Shown piece after piece: positions 7,598 through 13,281 of a DNA stretch of 64,000 nt (positions are counted from its first letter, which is position 1; each line of letters begins with the position of its first letter). Origin of the DNA: an uncultured Clostridia bacterium (GTDB taxonomy: Bacteria > Bacillota > Clostridia > Lachnospirales > CAG-274); assembly GCA_947630475.1 (NCBI GenBank), contig CANRHR010000004.1, positions 1 to 64,000 on the forward strand, given 5' to 3'. The notes beneath the pieces are model-generated. The model was not told where the DNA came from, did no database searches, and was given only the letters and a program-made list of their open reading frames with translations. The position numbers were made by a program, and so were the translations under genes.

Positions 7598-7827
7598 AAA
7601 ACCACGCCTAAAAGACGTGGTCAGACTGTCAATAAACCCTATTTTAACAAAGTAATTTAAAGCGTCGCAGACTTTTAATCCGCAGCAGGAATTCATTTCT
7701 GCGAGGAAAACAGCGAGTTTCAAGGGATTTTTAATCCCAATGGAATGAGCTGTTTATACATCTGTTCCTTCTCGAAAAAGTCCACTTGGACTTTTTCGAC
7801 ACTAAAACCACGCCTAAAAGACGTGGT
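7598..7827 (+). repeat. Interspersed repeat copy 1 with flanking duplicated hairpins (secA-clpC gap)
   Basis: The core, 7622-7803 (182 bp), starts CAGACTGTCAATAAAC and ends in a perfect hairpin (TCGAAAAAGTCC / GGACTTTTTCGA) followed by CACT. Its ends are an imperfect inverted repeat (ACTGTCAATAA against AGTGTCGAAAA, 8 of 11). It is bounded on both sides by an identical 24-bp sequence containing ACCACGCCTAAAAGACGTGG, at 7598-7621 and 7804-7827. No open reading frame is inside. Related copies lie at 31938, 40592 and 54813. It fills most of the 391-bp gap between secA and clpC. Confidence 0.85.
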
Positions 7828-7830
7828 TTT
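7804..7830 (-). terminator. Hairpin terminator after clpC
   Basis: On the minus strand this reads AAAACCACG, then a short loop, then CGTGGTTTT, 12 bp past the clpC stop codon: a short stem followed by a T run. The same sequence occurs again at 7598-7621 on the far side of the inserted repeat. Confidence 0.65.
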
Positions 7831-7841
7831 AGTTCAATGTA

Positions 7842-10310
7842 TTATTTTTTTGTAAGCTTAAAAGTATCGTCGCAAAAATCAAGAATCACGCTGTCACCGT
7901 TTTTAAATTCTTTTTCAAGAAGCCTTTGAGCAAACAAATCTTCTATTTTGGATTGAATTGCTCTTCTTAAAGGCCTTGCTCCGTAAACGGGGTCATATCC
8001 TTCTTCGGCGATTTTTTCGACAGCGGCATCTGTAAACTCAAGCTCTATATTGAGATTGAGTTTTATTCTGTCTTTGATTTCACCCAGCATTATTGCAGCA
8101 ATCTCTTTTATGCTTTGCTTATCAAGCTGATGGAATACAATTATATCGTCTATTCTGTTTAAAAATTCGGGGCGAAAAAGCTTTTTTACCTCTCCCATAA
8201 CGCTGTTTTTAATTTCATCATAGCTCCTCTGCTCATCATTTCCGCCGCCTGATGAGAAACCGAGCTTTTTGTTTTCGGTTATTGTTCTTGCGCCTGCGTT
8301 TGAGGTCATTATAATAACGGTATTTTTAAAATCTATTTTTCTGCCCTGAGAATCGGTTATGTGTCCGTCATCAAGCACTTGAAGAAGAATGTTGAAAACG
8401 TCTGGATGAGCTTTTTCTATCTCATCAAAAAGGATAACGCAGTAAGGCTTTCTTCGTATTTTTTCGCTAAGCTGCCCGCCTTCGTCAAAGCCTACATAGC
8501 CCGGAGGAGAACCGATTATTTTGGAAACGCTGTGCTTTTCCATATATTCGCTCATATCGACTCTTATCATAGAGTCTTCATCGCCGAAAAGCGTTTCGCT
8601 TAATGCTTTTGAAAGCTCTGTTTTTCCTACGCCCGTTGGGCCTAAGAATAAAAACGAGCCTATAGGACGCTTTGGATCTTTAAGCCCTATTCGTCCTCGT
8701 CTTACTGCCCTTGCCACGGCTTCAACGGCTTCATTTTGACCTACCACTCTTTTATGGAGTATTTCTTCCATATTTTTAAGCCTTTCGCTTTCTTCCTCCT
8801 GAAGCTGCCTTACGGGTATACCGGTCCAGCCGGATACGATATCGGCTATTTCATCTTCGCCCACAACCTGAGCTTCGTTTCCTACCTTGCTCTTCCATTG
8901 GTTTTTGGCGTCGTTAAGCTCTGATCTTATTTCGTCCTGCTTCTTTTTTATTTCGCTTGCCTTTTCGTAATTTTCACCTTTTATTGCTTCTTCTTTTTCT
9001 TTATCTAAGGCTGAAAGCTTTTCTTCCAATTCTTTTATTCCGCTTGGGGCGGTAAAGGTTTTAAGCCTTACCTTTGATGCCGCTTCATCGAGCACGTCAA
9101 TTGCCTTATCCGGCAAGAATCTGTCTGTAATATATCGGCTTGAGAGCTTTACGGCTGCAATGATTGCTTCATCGGTAATTTTAACGCTGTGATGAGCCTC
9201 ATATTTATCCCTAAGGCATTTAAGCATTTTTATTGCATCCTCTTGAGAAGGCTCTTCAACTTTCACAGGCTGGAATCTTCTTTCGAGGGCGGCGTCCTTT
9301 TCGATGTATTTTCTGTATTCGTTTAAAGTTGTTGCCCCTATAACCTGAATTTCGCCCCTTGCAAGAGATGGCTTTAAAATGTTTGATGCATCTATTGCGC
9401 CTTCCGCTCCGCCTGCTCCTATTATCGTGTGAAGCTCATCTATAAACAGTATAACATTTGCAGATGCGACAACTTCATCAAGCACCTTTTTGATTCTTTC
9501 TTCAAATTCTCCTCTGTATTTGCTTCCGGCAACCATAGAGGACAGATCGAGAGAAACCACTCTTTTATCTTTTAATATTTCGGGAACATCTCCGTCAACT
9601 ATTTTTTGTGCAAGACCTTCGGCGATGGCTGTTTTTCCTACGCCGGGATCACCTACAAGGCAGGGATTGTTTTTTGTTCTTCTGGTTAAAATTTGTATAA
9701 CCCTTTCGATTTCGCTTTCTCTGCCCGCTACGGGGTCAAATTTATGCTCAGCCGCCATAGCGTTAAGATCTCTGCTGAATTGATTAAGAGTCGGCGTAGA
9801 GTTGTTTTTATTTTTTGCTTTGGAGCCGTTTTTAACAGGTATGCCGTTTGCCTTTTCTCCCTCGCCAAGCATATTCATTATATCGTTATAAAGCTTTTCG
9901 GGATTTACATTTAATATGGAAAGTATTTTAATTGCATAGCTTTCGCCGTAAATCGAGCTTGCTTCACCTATAAGCGCCAAAAGCAAATGTTCTGTTCCTA
10001 TATAATTTGTATTCATTGCAATTGCTTCCTGATAGCTTCTTTGAATAACTCTGTTTGTCCTTGGCGTTATTGAATTTTCGTTAAGCTCGGAGCTGCTGTG
10101 TCCCATGCCGACAAGCTCTATAAGCTTATTTTTTATATCTTCTTCGCTTACATTCTGCATCTCAAGAGCCTTTGAAGCAACTGAATCCTTAACGTGGCTC
10201 AACGCCAAAAGCAGATGCTCCGTGCCTACATAGTCATGGCCTAAATTCATAGCCGCTTCAAGAGAGCAGTTTAAAACCTGTTCCGCTTTTTTTGTAAATT
10301 TTGGCTGCAT
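7842..10310 (-). CDS. clpC: ATP-dependent Clp protease ATPase subunit ClpC
   Basis: ClpC is the AAA+ unfoldase that feeds substrates, including McsB-marked phospho-arginine proteins, to ClpP. Seen in order: a double N-domain (residues about 1-145, two EHLLLAL repeats), AAA1 with Walker A GDPGVGKT (220-227), a UVR/middle-domain coiled coil (about 425-470, KEEAIKGENYEKASEIKKKQ) that binds adaptors, and AAA2 with GPTGVGKT (557-564) plus a C-terminal D2 small domain. The length, 822 residues, is typical. The ribosome site AAAGGAGG precedes the ATG. It is the third gene of mcsA-mcsB-clpC, 73 bp after mcsB, and shares their CIRCE-controlled promoter. Confidence 0.97.
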   Translation of the reverse strand: MQPKFTKKAEQVLNCSLEAAMNLGHDYVGTEHLLLALSHVKDSVASKALEMQNVSEEDIKNKLIELVGMGHSSSELNENSITPRTNRVIQRSYQEAIAMNTNYIGTEHLLLALIGEASSIYGESYAIKILSILNVNPEKLYNDIMNMLGEGEKANGIPVKNGSKAKNKNNSTPTLNQFSRDLNAMAAEHKFDPVAGRESEIERVIQILTRRTKNNPCLVGDPGVGKTAIAEGLAQKIVDGDVPEILKDKRVVSLDLSSMVAGSKYRGEFEERIKKVLDEVVASANVILFIDELHTIIGAGGAEGAIDASNILKPSLARGEIQVIGATTLNEYRKYIEKDAALERRFQPVKVEEPSQEDAIKMLKCLRDKYEAHHSVKITDEAIIAAVKLSSRYITDRFLPDKAIDVLDEAASKVRLKTFTAPSGIKELEEKLSALDKEKEEAIKGENYEKASEIKKKQDEIRSELNDAKNQWKSKVGNEAQVVGEDEIADIVSGWTGIPVRQLQEEESERLKNMEEILHKRVVGQNEAVEAVARAVRRGRIGLKDPKRPIGSFLFLGPTGVGKTELSKALSETLFGDEDSMIRVDMSEYMEKHSVSKIIGSPPGYVGFDEGGQLSEKIRRKPYCVILFDEIEKAHPDVFNILLQVLDDGHITDSQGRKIDFKNTVIIMTSNAGARTITENKKLGFSSGGGNDEQRSYDEIKNSVMGEVKKLFRPEFLNRIDDIIVFHQLDKQSIKEIAAIMLGEIKDRIKLNLNIELEFTDAAVEKIAEEGYDPVYGARPLRRAIQSKIEDLFAQRLLEKEFKNGDSVILDFCDDTFKLTKK

Positions 10311-10383
10311 TTATGTAACCTCCTTTATATATTTGTTTTTATTTTTAAAAATTTTCGGATAAAACATAAGCCTTTATATTTGC

Positions 10384-11406
10384 TTAAATGACATCGTTTA
10401 AATATTGCGCCCTTTGAATATCTCTTTCGGATTCGTTTAATGTTTTGCCGCATCTTTTTTGAAGATTTCCGCTTTGAATATTCATCATAATATTATATAT
10501 ATTAGCCTTTGGAGATGTTTTTAAAACATCGCTGTTTATGCCAAGCCTTACATCGGATAAAAGCTGCATAGCCTCTTTTGATGATATAAGCTTGCAGTTT
10601 TTAAGTATGCCGTATGAACGGAATATCATATCTTCAAATTCAAGCTTATGATATTTTTTGTATTGTTCGGTTATAGATTTTTCCTGCTCTATAATTTGGG
10701 CGGTAAGGTTTTTAAGGCTGTCTATTATTTCTTCTTCGCTTTTGCCAAGCGTGATTTGGTTTGATATCTGATAAATAGAGCCTAACGGTTCTGAGCCTTC
10801 GCCATATAATCCCCTCATTGTCATGCCGAATTTTGAAAGGCTTTGTGAAATTGAACGTATGCGTCCGGTTTTTTCGAGCATAGGCAGATGAAGCATAAAA
10901 GAAGCCCTAAGTCCTGTTCCGGTGTTTGTGGGGCAGGCGGTTAAATAGCCGTAGTTTTTGTCAAAGGCATATTCAACGCTTTCTTCTATCAAGTCGTCTA
11001 TTTTATCTGCATTTTGCCATGCCTTATCGATATTATAACCGGCGCATATGCTTTGTATTCTTAAATGATCTTCTTCGTTTAAAAGAATGCTTACAGATTC
11101 ATCATTTTGAATAAGAGCCGCACAGGGAGATTTTTTATTTATAAGATCTGCGCTTATAATATGATTTTCAAGCATAGCGGTTTTATCTTCATAGGAAAGA
11201 TTGTTAAGCTCTGTATATTCAAACATTTCAGATAAAAATGTTCTTTCGTTTTTTATTGCGTTTTTAACTTCTTCTATAAGCTGTTTTGATTTTTCCTCTG
11301 AAATAGCCGCAGAAAAAGGATATTTTTTTAGGTTTCTCGCAAGCCTTATTCTTGATGATATAACTGTTTGTTTATCAAGGTCTTTTTCTTCATACCATTT
11401 TGTCAT
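10384..11406 (-). CDS. mcsB: Protein arginine kinase McsB
   Basis: McsB is a phosphagen-kinase-fold enzyme that phosphorylates arginine residues of misfolded proteins, a degradation mark read by ClpC-ClpP. The 340-residue protein has the N-terminal SSRIRLARNL nucleotide-binding motif, the catalytic-cysteine loop ACPTNTGTGLRASFMLHLP, and GEGSEPLGSIYQISNQITLG. The ATG overlaps the mcsA stop by four bases (ATGA), showing translational coupling to its activator McsA. The C-terminal helical region is present (LLSDVRLGINSDVL, ERDIQRAQYLNDVI). Confidence 0.97.
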   Translation of the reverse strand: MTKWYEEKDLDKQTVISSRIRLARNLKKYPFSAAISEEKSKQLIEEVKNAIKNERTFLSEMFEYTELNNLSYEDKTAMLENHIISADLINKKSPCAALIQNDESVSILLNEEDHLRIQSICAGYNIDKAWQNADKIDDLIEESVEYAFDKNYGYLTACPTNTGTGLRASFMLHLPMLEKTGRIRSISQSLSKFGMTMRGLYGEGSEPLGSIYQISNQITLGKSEEEIIDSLKNLTAQIIEQEKSITEQYKKYHKLEFEDMIFRSYGILKNCKLISSKEAMQLLSDVRLGINSDVLKTSPKANIYNIMMNIQSGNLQKRCGKTLNESERDIQRAQYLNDVI

Positions 11407-11897
11407 TGTTTTTCCCTTCCTTCAAGTTCTCTTATTTTATCACGAAGCGCCGCTGCTTTTTCGTATTGCTCATCTTCCACAGCTTTTTTAAGTTTAAATT
11501 TAAGAGATTCAAGCTCGTGCTCGGCTTTAAGCTCAGCCCCTGCCTTTTGAGGAAACTTGCCGTTATGACGGCTGTTGCCCTGTATATTTTTTAAAATGGA
11601 ATCCATCTGTTTTGAAAATGTAGTATAGCATTGGGCGCAGCCAAGTCTTCCGCTTGCCTGTATATCGTTAAAGGTAAATCCGCATTCGGGGCACCTTAAG
11701 GCATGCTCTGCATAAGCGCCTATAGCCGGAGTATTTGTAAATCCGCTTAAAAAGCCCTTGAACATATTGTCGAAGGAGGGCGATAAATTCATTTGATGAG
11801 CGCATTTTTCACATAAATGATATTCGGTTGTTTCACCGTTAATGCTTTGCTGATAATGAACGGTTGCTTTGTTTTGTTTGCATTTTTCACACAACAT
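11403..11897 (-). CDS. mcsA: McsB activator McsA (zinc-finger, UVR protein)
   Basis: McsA is the 164-residue cofactor of McsB. It has four CxxC zinc-binding pairs in two modules (residues 3-6 CEKC with 29-32 CEKC, and CPEC near 70 with CAQC near 87) and a C-terminal UVR motif (LKKAVEDEQYEKAAALRDKIREL). AGGAGG precedes the ATG. In Bacillus and many relatives ctsR lies directly upstream of mcsA; here the next thing upstream is a 430-bp gap with a CIRCE operator and then a divergent gene, so McsA leads the operon. Confidence 0.94.
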   Translation of the reverse strand: MLCEKCKQNKATVHYQQSINGETTEYHLCEKCAHQMNLSPSFDNMFKGFLSGFTNTPAIGAYAEHALRCPECGFTFNDIQASGRLGCAQCYTTFSKQMDSILKNIQGNSRHNGKFPQKAGAELKAEHELESLKFKLKKAVEDEQYEKAAALRDKIRELEGREKQ

Positions 11898-12024
11898 AAT
11901 TATTCCTCCTGTCTTTTTGACAGCCCTGCTGTAGTTTTTTAAGGGTTGTTTTATTATAATTTGATAATATGCTTTAATTATTCATATATTAAGCAGTTAA
12001 ATCTAATATTTTTAGCTTGAATAT

Positions 12025-12053
12025 AATATAGCATTAAAATTGTTAGCCATCAA
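12025..12053 (-). promoter_or_regulatory. Sigma-A promoter of mcsA-mcsB-clpC
   Basis: The minus strand reads TTGATG (-35, 12053-12048), a 17-bp spacer and TATATT (-10, 12030-12025). The -35 hexamer lies inside the CIRCE palindrome at 12043-12069, so a bound HrcA would block polymerase directly. Confidence 0.75.
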
Positions 12054-12069
12054 GTTTGGTGAGTGCTAA
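12043..12069. promoter_or_regulatory. CIRCE element (HrcA operator)
   Basis: TTAGCCATC, nine bases, GAGTGCTAA. The family consensus is TTAGCACTC-N9-GAGTGCTAA; the right half matches 9 of 9 and the left half 7 of 9, with exact spacing. It overlaps the -35 of the mcsA promoter and lies about 150 bp upstream of the mcsA start. HrcA is the heat-shock repressor of groE and dnaK operons; its use here is discussed in the findings. Confidence 0.85.
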
Positions 12070-12154
12070 TTAAAATCGCATAAATCGTATAAATTGGCAC
12101 AAAATATATAATTATCTTTAATTATCTTAAAATTTCATTAAATTTTAAATTTTT

Positions 12155-12231
12155 TTATCGACTGAGTAAGCCTCCGCCTTTTAGGAGGCGGGTACTTAAT
12201 GAGTATATAGCGTAAGCAGAGTAAGAATATC
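12155..12231 (+). repeat. Repeat family 2, copy A
   Basis: It starts TTATCGACTGAGTAAGCC, continues with a hairpin (CTCCGCC, TTTT, AGGAGGCGG), then TGAGTATATAGCGTAAGC and ends near GAATATC. Copy B lies at 57479-57563 in the opposite orientation and a decayed copy C at 52921-52978. It sits between the mcsA promoter and the divergent dehydrogenase gene. The rest of the 430-bp gap holds the two promoters, CIRCE and AT-rich DNA. Confidence 0.75.
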
Positions 12232-12274
12232 ATCTTTAAAAAGATTACAAAATATTAAGCATTTAACGCAATTG

Positions 12275-12283
12275 TGATATAAT
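12275..12283 (+). promoter_or_regulatory. Extended -10 promoter for the dehydrogenase-asnA pair
   Basis: TGATATAAT is a perfect extended -10 (TG-n-TATAAT), 45 bp upstream of the start codon. The hexamer 17 bp further upstream (TTAAGC) is a poor -35, as is usual for extended -10 promoters. Confidence 0.6.
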
Positions 12284-12327
12284 AAAAAAAGATTATGCAT
12301 AAGCTTAAGTAAGGGAGGAAATATATA

Positions 12328-13281
12328 ATGAAAATTTGCGTTCTTGATGCGGCAACGCTTGAGGATACTTCGGTTTTTTCACGCTTTAACGATTTTGGAG
12401 AGGTTACGATTTTTGAAGAAACCAAAAACGAAGATGTAAAGCAAAGAATAAAGGGCTTCGATATAGTTATAGACAATAAAGCTGTAATATCCCAAAATGC
12501 CATAGAGGATAATGACAGCCTTAAGCTGATTGCGCTTCTTTCCACAGGCACAAATGTAATAGATATGGAAAGCGCCAAAAAAAAGGGGATAGCCGTTTGT
12601 AATGTCGCGGGATATTCAACAGCCAGTGTTTTGCAGCATACATTTGCAATTTTATTTGAGCTTTTGCAAAGGCTTAATATCTATGATGATTTTGTAAAAT
12701 CGGGAAAATACAGCGAAAGCTGTATGTTTACAAGTTATTTAAAGCCCTTTGAGGAAATAAACGCAAAAACATGGGGAATTGTAGGCTTGGGAACAATAGG
12801 AACGGCTGTTGCAAAGGCGGCGCAAGCCTTTGGGGCTGATGTCGTTTATTATTCGATAAGCGGTAAAAACTGTCCGGATTTTGAAAAAGTGGAATTTAAC
12901 GATCTTTTAAAAAGAGCCGATATAATTTCTCTGCACTGTGCATTAAGTAAAAAAACCAAAAATTTATTTTCATCTGCTCAGTTTAATATTATGAAAAAGA
13001 ACAGCATTATAATAAATGTTGCCCGAGGCTCCGTTATAAATGAGAATGACCTTGCCGAAGCCATAGACAGCGGCAAAATAGGAGGAGCTTGTTTGGATGT
13101 TTTTGAAAATGAGCCTATAAAAAAAGATAATGCTTTGCTAAAAATAAAAAATCGTGATAAAATAGTGTTGTCGCCGCATATCGCATGGGCATCAATTCAG
13201 TCAAGGCAGCGCCTTGTTGATGAGGTTTATAAAAATGTAAAGGCATTTATATGCGGGGAAAAAAGAAACAGAGTTATTTAA
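12328..13281 (+). CDS. D-isomer specific 2-hydroxyacid dehydrogenase
   Basis: This 317-residue NAD(P)-dependent dehydrogenase has an N-terminal substrate-binding domain (about 1-95) and a central Rossmann domain with GIVGLGTIGTAVA near residue 153. The catalytic Arg lies in INVARGSVINENDLAEAI, Glu in DVFENEP and His in LSPHIAWAS, the order expected for glycerate/hydroxypyruvate reductases. The closest named type is probably glycerate dehydrogenase (HprA-like), but the substrate cannot be fixed from sequence. AAGGGAGGA precedes the ATG. It is followed after 10 bp by asnA, so the two are cotranscribed. Confidence 0.88.
   Translation: MKICVLDAATLEDTSVFSRFNDFGEVTIFEETKNEDVKQRIKGFDIVIDNKAVISQNAIEDNDSLKLIALLSTGTNVIDMESAKKKGIAVCNVAGYSTASVLQHTFAILFELLQRLNIYDDFVKSGKYSESCMFTSYLKPFEEINAKTWGIVGLGTIGTAVAKAAQAFGADVVYYSISGKNCPDFEKVEFNDLLKRADIISLHCALSKKTKNLFSSAQFNIMKKNSIIINVARGSVINENDLAEAIDSGKIGGACLDVFENEPIKKDNALLKIKNRDKIVLSPHIAWASIQSRQRLVDEVYKNVKAFICGEKRNRVI

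Follow-up and report, generated by a model that had tools for sequence, protein, structure and literature searches.

Probable Control of an mcsA-mcsB-clpC Operon by HrcA through a Hybrid CIRCE-like Operator in a Clostridial Order in Which CtsR Was Not Found

Introduction

In the genome of an uncultured Clostridia bacterium, the operon of the protein arginine kinase system, mcsA-mcsB-clpC, is preceded by a CIRCE-like inverted repeat that is merged with the promoter, and HrcA has very likely replaced the lost CtsR as the repressor of this operon. The takeover is well supported by sequence comparison, from which we infer the binding of HrcA itself. CtsR is usually regarded as the regulator accompanying the McsA-McsB-ClpC operon, and the arginine kinase was recognised through it.

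The Operon and Its Predicted Operator

The window, i.e., the whole 64-kb stretch of DNA that was analysed, carries mcsA, mcsB and clpC contiguously at 11897–7842. The features discussed here are the following:

7842–10310, minus strand: clpC, Clp protease ATPase, 822 aa (best PDB match ClpC/MecB 3j3t, covering nearly all of the protein)
10384–11406, minus strand: mcsB, protein arginine kinase, 340 aa, overlapping the end of mcsA (NCBIfam NF002194, over cut-off; PDB 8wtb, 6tv6, 6fh1)
11403–11897, minus strand: mcsA, activator of protein arginine kinase, 164 aa (NCBIfam NF053706, E 6.8e-45, under cut-off; PDB 8wtb_B, E 2.2e-31)
12025–12030, minus strand: -10 hexamer TATATT, 17 nt after the -35 (promoter scan; relatives show a TATAA consensus in this position)
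12048–12053, minus strand: -35 hexamer TTGATG, which shares bases with the operator's right arm (9/12 together with the -10; promoter scan)
12043–12069, minus strand: predicted CIRCE-like HrcA operator of hybrid form, reading TTAGCACTC-N9-GATGGCTAA along the mcsA strand (consensus match, window and genome counts, same hybrid in relatives)
12328–13281, plus strand: divergent 2-hydroxyacid dehydrogenase gene, 258 nt from the operator (NCBIfam NF006263, over cut-off)

The identities of McsA, McsB and ClpC, as proposed in an earlier note on this DNA, are borne out by matches to solved structures; among the NCBIfam McsB models, one only scored over its cut-off. The components by which a McsA/McsB system is recognised, a McsB with a phosphagen-kinase domain and a McsA activator, adjoin clpC. 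All residues that are invariant among 19 aligned McsB sequences (that of the window and 18 relatives) are kept in the McsB of the window, so that its sequence gives no sign of a dead kinase. The divergent dehydrogenase gene is probably not a target of the operator; between the two, at 12170–12190, lies a G+C-rich inverted repeat (GCCTCC...GGAGGC).

On the minus strand, the CIRCE-like site is composed of TTAGCACTC (12069–12061), a spacer of nine bases, and GATGGCTAA (12051–12043), and its beginning is 172 nt ahead of the mcsA start. Compared with the CIRCE consensus, TTAGCACTC-N9-GAGTGCTAA as given in PMC3842655, 16 of the 18 arm bases are matched; the inverted repeat of CIRCE is present at mcsA with the reservation that both mismatches fall in the right arm, the left arm being perfect. 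According to a study on Mollicutes, functional CIRCE elements carry two mutations at most (PMC5138195), and the two mismatches of the mcsA site, which stay at this limit, are hence counted in favour of a predicted HrcA operator. As for the placement of CIRCE at the promoter or in the 5' leader of its target, the site overlaps the -35 hexamer, and this layout is conserved. The overlap had already been claimed in the earlier note and is confirmed, with the right arm overlapping TTGATG and the interval 12025–12069 extending exactly from the -10 hexamer to CIRCE. The conserved nature of the imperfect arm had been missed in that note.

The site is the single match to CIRCE within the window, versus 0.02 expected from dinucleotide shuffles, and one of four sites with up to three mismatches in the whole 2.18 Mb genome, where the reversed control pattern yields none. 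A chance match as the origin of the mcsA site is ruled out by this genome-wide count and the shuffles. A search for hrcA and for further CIRCE sites, which had been proposed earlier, returned a single hrcA (TIGR00331 over cut-off, DNA-binding head present), encoded in hrcA-grpE-dnaK-dnaJ, and three sites besides that at mcsA, namely at groES-groEL (no mismatches), at hrcA-grpE-dnaK-dnaJ (one mismatch) and in the gap between htpG and spoIVA (one mismatch). Since the latter two genes are divergent, HrcA might also touch a sporulation gene (L003:1501–1527, contig C9).

Absence of CtsR

With two Pfam models, N-terminal and C-terminal, no CtsR gene was found in the genome of the window; 0 of 116 relatives matched, and likewise 0 of 392 genomes drawn from the order (including 0 of 299 good-quality ones). 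A CtsR box was not found in the 1500 nt upstream of mcsA at up to two mismatches, nor was ctsR found in 70 mcsA loci of relatives. The absence of ctsR, which had been read from the window alone, extends to the genome and to the sampled order, in which CtsR has been lost as far as these genomes go; for the CtsR heptad repeat, likewise not seen earlier, it holds in the stretch upstream of mcsA. Pieces of three members of the order are identical to contigs of Defluviitaleaceae bacterium Mp193P1bin2, Clostridiales bacterium UBA12072 and Clostridiales bacterium MO.7_4, and the order presumably stands near Lachnospirales.

That CtsR is present, was missed, and still controls the operon is suggested by the control set, in which Lactococcus alone of 14 genomes matched. 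Bacillus subtilis, which possesses ctsR, matched neither CtsR model. However, the same model was positive in 282 of the 299 genomes of a phylum sample, which shows that it works despite the B. subtilis result. The 17 CtsR-less genomes of that sample include five of the order of the window (its own genome included) and three more of its class. Considering these 282 positives against none in the order, the lack of a CtsR box and the lack of ctsR in the relatives' loci, a missed CtsR is close to refuted, and a copy hidden elsewhere in the genome is rejected on the same searches. A weak match to the C-terminal model in G103, under cut-off and inside a 421-aa frame, was taken as chance.

Conservation and History of the Site

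McsA was matched in 72 of the 116 relatives, and 70 of these loci were examined (G071 and G110 were left out) for CIRCE with up to four mismatches in the 1500 nt before the gene (or in the shorter stretch available where a contig ended). The site was found at 31 of the 70 loci, versus 0.25 expected from dinucleotide shuffles, with the window's own family contributing 24 (of 25 loci) and all other relatives 7 (of 45). The exception within the family is G032, whose contig holds merely 401 nt before mcsA; a hybrid site is found near the end of another G032 contig (L197), and the mcsA locus may be split between the two.

For comparison, 80 named loci were examined, the 70 of them with ctsR serving as a negative control. 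Upstream CIRCE was found in none of these 70, the four-mismatch matches in L132 and L148 lying inside the mcsB coding sequence. Of the named loci, ten lack ctsR; an upstream CIRCE is found in two of these (L110, L183), and a third, L112, has a four-mismatch match inside mcsB. In 30 further ctsR loci, CIRCE was again not found at up to four mismatches (one strand is enough for this search, given that the consensus equals its own reverse complement), and a perfect CtsR box occurs in 14 of the 30, versus 0 of the 70 relatives' loci.

Neither CIRCE nor CtsR is found at 39 of the 70 relatives' mcsA loci (38 without the contig-split G032), which means that the operon can live without both. Such loci include L017, L020, L022, L034, L041, L050, L065 and L074; in several of them, the gene preceding mcsA seems, from inspection of the DNA by eye, to encode a Cys-rich zinc ribbon at its end. 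The remaining 44 of the 116 relatives (G001, G005, G007–G009 and others), several genera of the window's family included, show no McsA match, from which it appears that the arginine kinase system has probably been lost repeatedly.

On a tree of 69 McsA+McsB rows, 32 of which were labelled site-bearing (L014 by inference; L043, without mcsB, was left out), the gain and loss of the site takes seven changes, versus 23.2 in shuffles, with 0 of 500 shuffles as low. All site-bearing loci fall in one branch of 46 rows, which has modest support, and none in the other 23 rows; the branches starred in the tree force two changes. The mcsA site is thus clustered. With the site confined to one branch, the loss of CtsR is older or wider than the presence of CIRCE at mcsA.

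The Hybrid Right Arm and the Promoter

The right arm GATGGCTAA, in place of GAGTGCTAA, recurs across families, merged with a -35/-10 pair. At up to one mismatch, TTAGCACTC-N9-GATGGCTAA was found at 22 sites in 22 of 116 genomes (the window's own included), and the reversed control gave none. Decay of the right arm is rejected, because the same altered arm is kept in these relatives. Sixteen of the sites, that of the window among them, precede mcsA. Five others precede hsp20 genes, all in genomes without a McsA match, and the last is close to the end of a contig. At the hsp20 sites (L190, L199, L200, L201, L207; site at 1501–1527), TTGACA lies inside the operator. Canonical CIRCE, sampled at 27 loci of the family, one per genome, mostly has other targets: 13 sites are at groES, eight at hrcA, five at htpG and one at mcsA (genus g5). 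Hence, the hybrid stands at mcsA or hsp20 in 21 of 22 cases, and the canonical form at groES, hrcA or htpG in 26 of 27. Outside the order the hybrid is rare: in the phylum sample, it occurs at up to one mismatch in 6 of 299 genomes, one being the window's own and the other five carrying one-mismatch variants, with the reversed control also matching in one genome.

The promoter was aligned over 15 loci, i.e., 14 picked from the 31 site-bearing relatives and the named locus L110. Operator, -35 and -10 stand at constant spacing, with the consensus TTAGCACTCAc.a..CTTGATGGCTAACAA.a...g.g.TATAata, and TTGATG, TTGACG or TTGACT serves as the -35 in 13 of the 15 rows. Conservation amounts to 1.89 bits per base in the arms, a value inflated by the choice of rows; neither the -10 nor the CAA that follows the arm is affected in this way. 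The -10 stretch reaches 1.14 bits, the upstream flank 0.46 and the downstream flank 0.34.

Taken alone, the -35/-10 pair at mcsA is no better than chance, with 12 promoter-like pairs found in 7600–12340 versus 12.2 expected and several others also scoring 9/12; calling it the only good promoter, as had been done earlier, was too strong from the scan alone. Support for the pair comes from the conserved layout in relatives. The same conservation bears on the possibility that transcription of the operon is constitutive or starts mainly at another promoter, with CIRCE as a relic. The 39 relatives' loci without CIRCE and the equally scoring pairs elsewhere in the stretch would suit this; a relic, however, would not keep arms, -35 and -10 at fixed spacing before proteins that are mostly 35–56% identical to those of the window, and we regard it as highly improbable.

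Both in genus g7 and upstream of hsp20, TTGACA, the -35, is situated further left, while TGGCTAA stays put. As the -35 moves by some nucleotides between genera and targets over a fixed TGGCTAA, the arm seems to be retained in its own right, and the explanation that the altered arm serves the -35 alone is weakened. Conservation as such cannot tell HrcA from another protein reading the same half site. The hybrid might be the operator of a second regulator, or might be bound by HrcA and a second protein on the right arm, HrcA alone mattering little; the conservation of GATGGCTAA despite its departure from CIRCE, the occurrence of the hybrid at mcsA and hsp20, and the fixed TGGCTAA all fit with this. 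Against it, nearly all sites have a left arm that matches CIRCE perfectly, the outer TTAGC/GCTAA are still symmetric, and in genus g5, which belongs to the window's family, a perfect or one-mismatch CIRCE begins 47–72 nt before the mcsA start codon, so that the same regulator is the simplest reading. A second regulator is, thus, considered unlikely, and HrcA is preferred.

Proposed Mechanism and Feedback

The earlier proposal that the arginine kinase operon belongs to the GroE/DnaK circuit very probably holds, considering the conserved CIRCE, the absence of ctsR and a site type common to groES and hrcA-grpE-dnaK-dnaJ. In the resting state, HrcA, whose activity free GroEL maintains (for GroEL control of HrcA, see PMC5506225), would occupy the hybrid CIRCE and cover the -35, keeping transcription of the operon low. 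Upon occupation of GroEL by unfolded proteins, HrcA would release, and the chaperones, HtpG and the arginine-tagging protease system would rise together. Through the hybrid right arm, the operator and the -35 would have bases in common, and HrcA affinity is probably lower here than at the perfect sites, in which case the operon would open earlier or leak more.

Together with ctsR, the McsB-CtsR feedback had been supposed lost. CtsR is gone indeed, but the loss of feedback is doubtful, since McsB of B. subtilis is reported to phosphorylate CtsR as well as HrcA, in the DNA-binding part of each (PMC8370763, PMC8957991). By analogy, the loop may run through HrcA: McsB, once produced, would phosphorylate HrcA and keep it off the operator, replacing the old McsB-CtsR loop.

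On the side of dephosphorylation, the only LMWPc match of the genome (L245:1492–2373, contig C10) is fused with ribose-5-phosphate isomerase B (RpiB) and is, judged by its sequence, a candidate arginine phosphatase (a YwlE-like eraser). The fusion gene follows a Sua5-like gene and precedes a upp-like gene; the Sua5-like neighbourhood presumably resembles that of ywlE in B. subtilis.

More broadly, and tentatively, the whole order may have lost CtsR, and in a large part of it HrcA may have taken over via the -35-fused hybrid TTAGCACTC-N9-GATGGCTAA and close variants. These would mark a second target tier, to which the arginine-kinase/ClpC operon and the genes of small heat-shock proteins belong and which is distinct from groE, dnaK and htpG with their perfect CIRCE; McsB would close the loop by phosphorylating HrcA. 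If this is true, a single repressor, HrcA, would sense both chaperone shortage and kinase activity.

Relation to Known Systems and Significance

With the CIRCE/HrcA class I system (groE, dnaK), the window shares the inverted repeat, the nine-base spacer, the promoter overlap and the presence of hrcA, and its genome has sites at groES, hrcA and htpG; it differs in that the target is a Clp/arginine kinase operon and the right arm a conserved variant fused with the -35. With the CtsR class III operon ctsR-mcsA-mcsB-clpC of Bacillus and Clostridium, it shares the order mcsA-mcsB-clpC and the same proteins, but ctsR (none in the order sample) and the CtsR box are missing, the repressor site is another one, and the genes downstream look, by eye, like secA and prfB, not radA-disA.

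Mollicutes are not known to possess CtsR. Their HrcA is described to control clpB and lon, which resembles the window in placing an HrcA site at a Clp/protease gene; the targets are other ones, and arginine kinase is not mentioned in the parts of that paper on which we draw (PMC5138195). CtsR does not occur anywhere in its text. In Clostridium acetobutylicum, HrcA sites are reported at the hrcA operon, groESL and htpG, as in the window's genome, whereas the clpC operon is under CtsR (PMC3828012). In lactic acid bacteria, HrcA and CtsR are reported to share the groE and hrcA promoters (PMC3616900), and these bacteria are said to be without McsA/McsB (PMC3842655).

In the open-licence literature (titles and abstract openings), no report of CIRCE at mcsA in a ctsR-less clade was found. 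As far as this search shows, the combination of a kept kinase operon, a missing CtsR and, in its place, a probable HrcA control with a conserved hybrid operator is new.

A clade with the kinase, without CtsR and under predicted HrcA control separates ClpCP tagging from the part that the kinase plays in the control of its own repressor. Such a clade makes it possible to ask, in nature, whether the feedback can be sustained solely through HrcA phosphorylation, a modification reported in B. subtilis along with that of CtsR; the hybrid operator, in turn, allows graded repression to be tested within one small regulon. In this CtsR-less group, protein repair and disposal are probably switched on by one circuit, that of HrcA.
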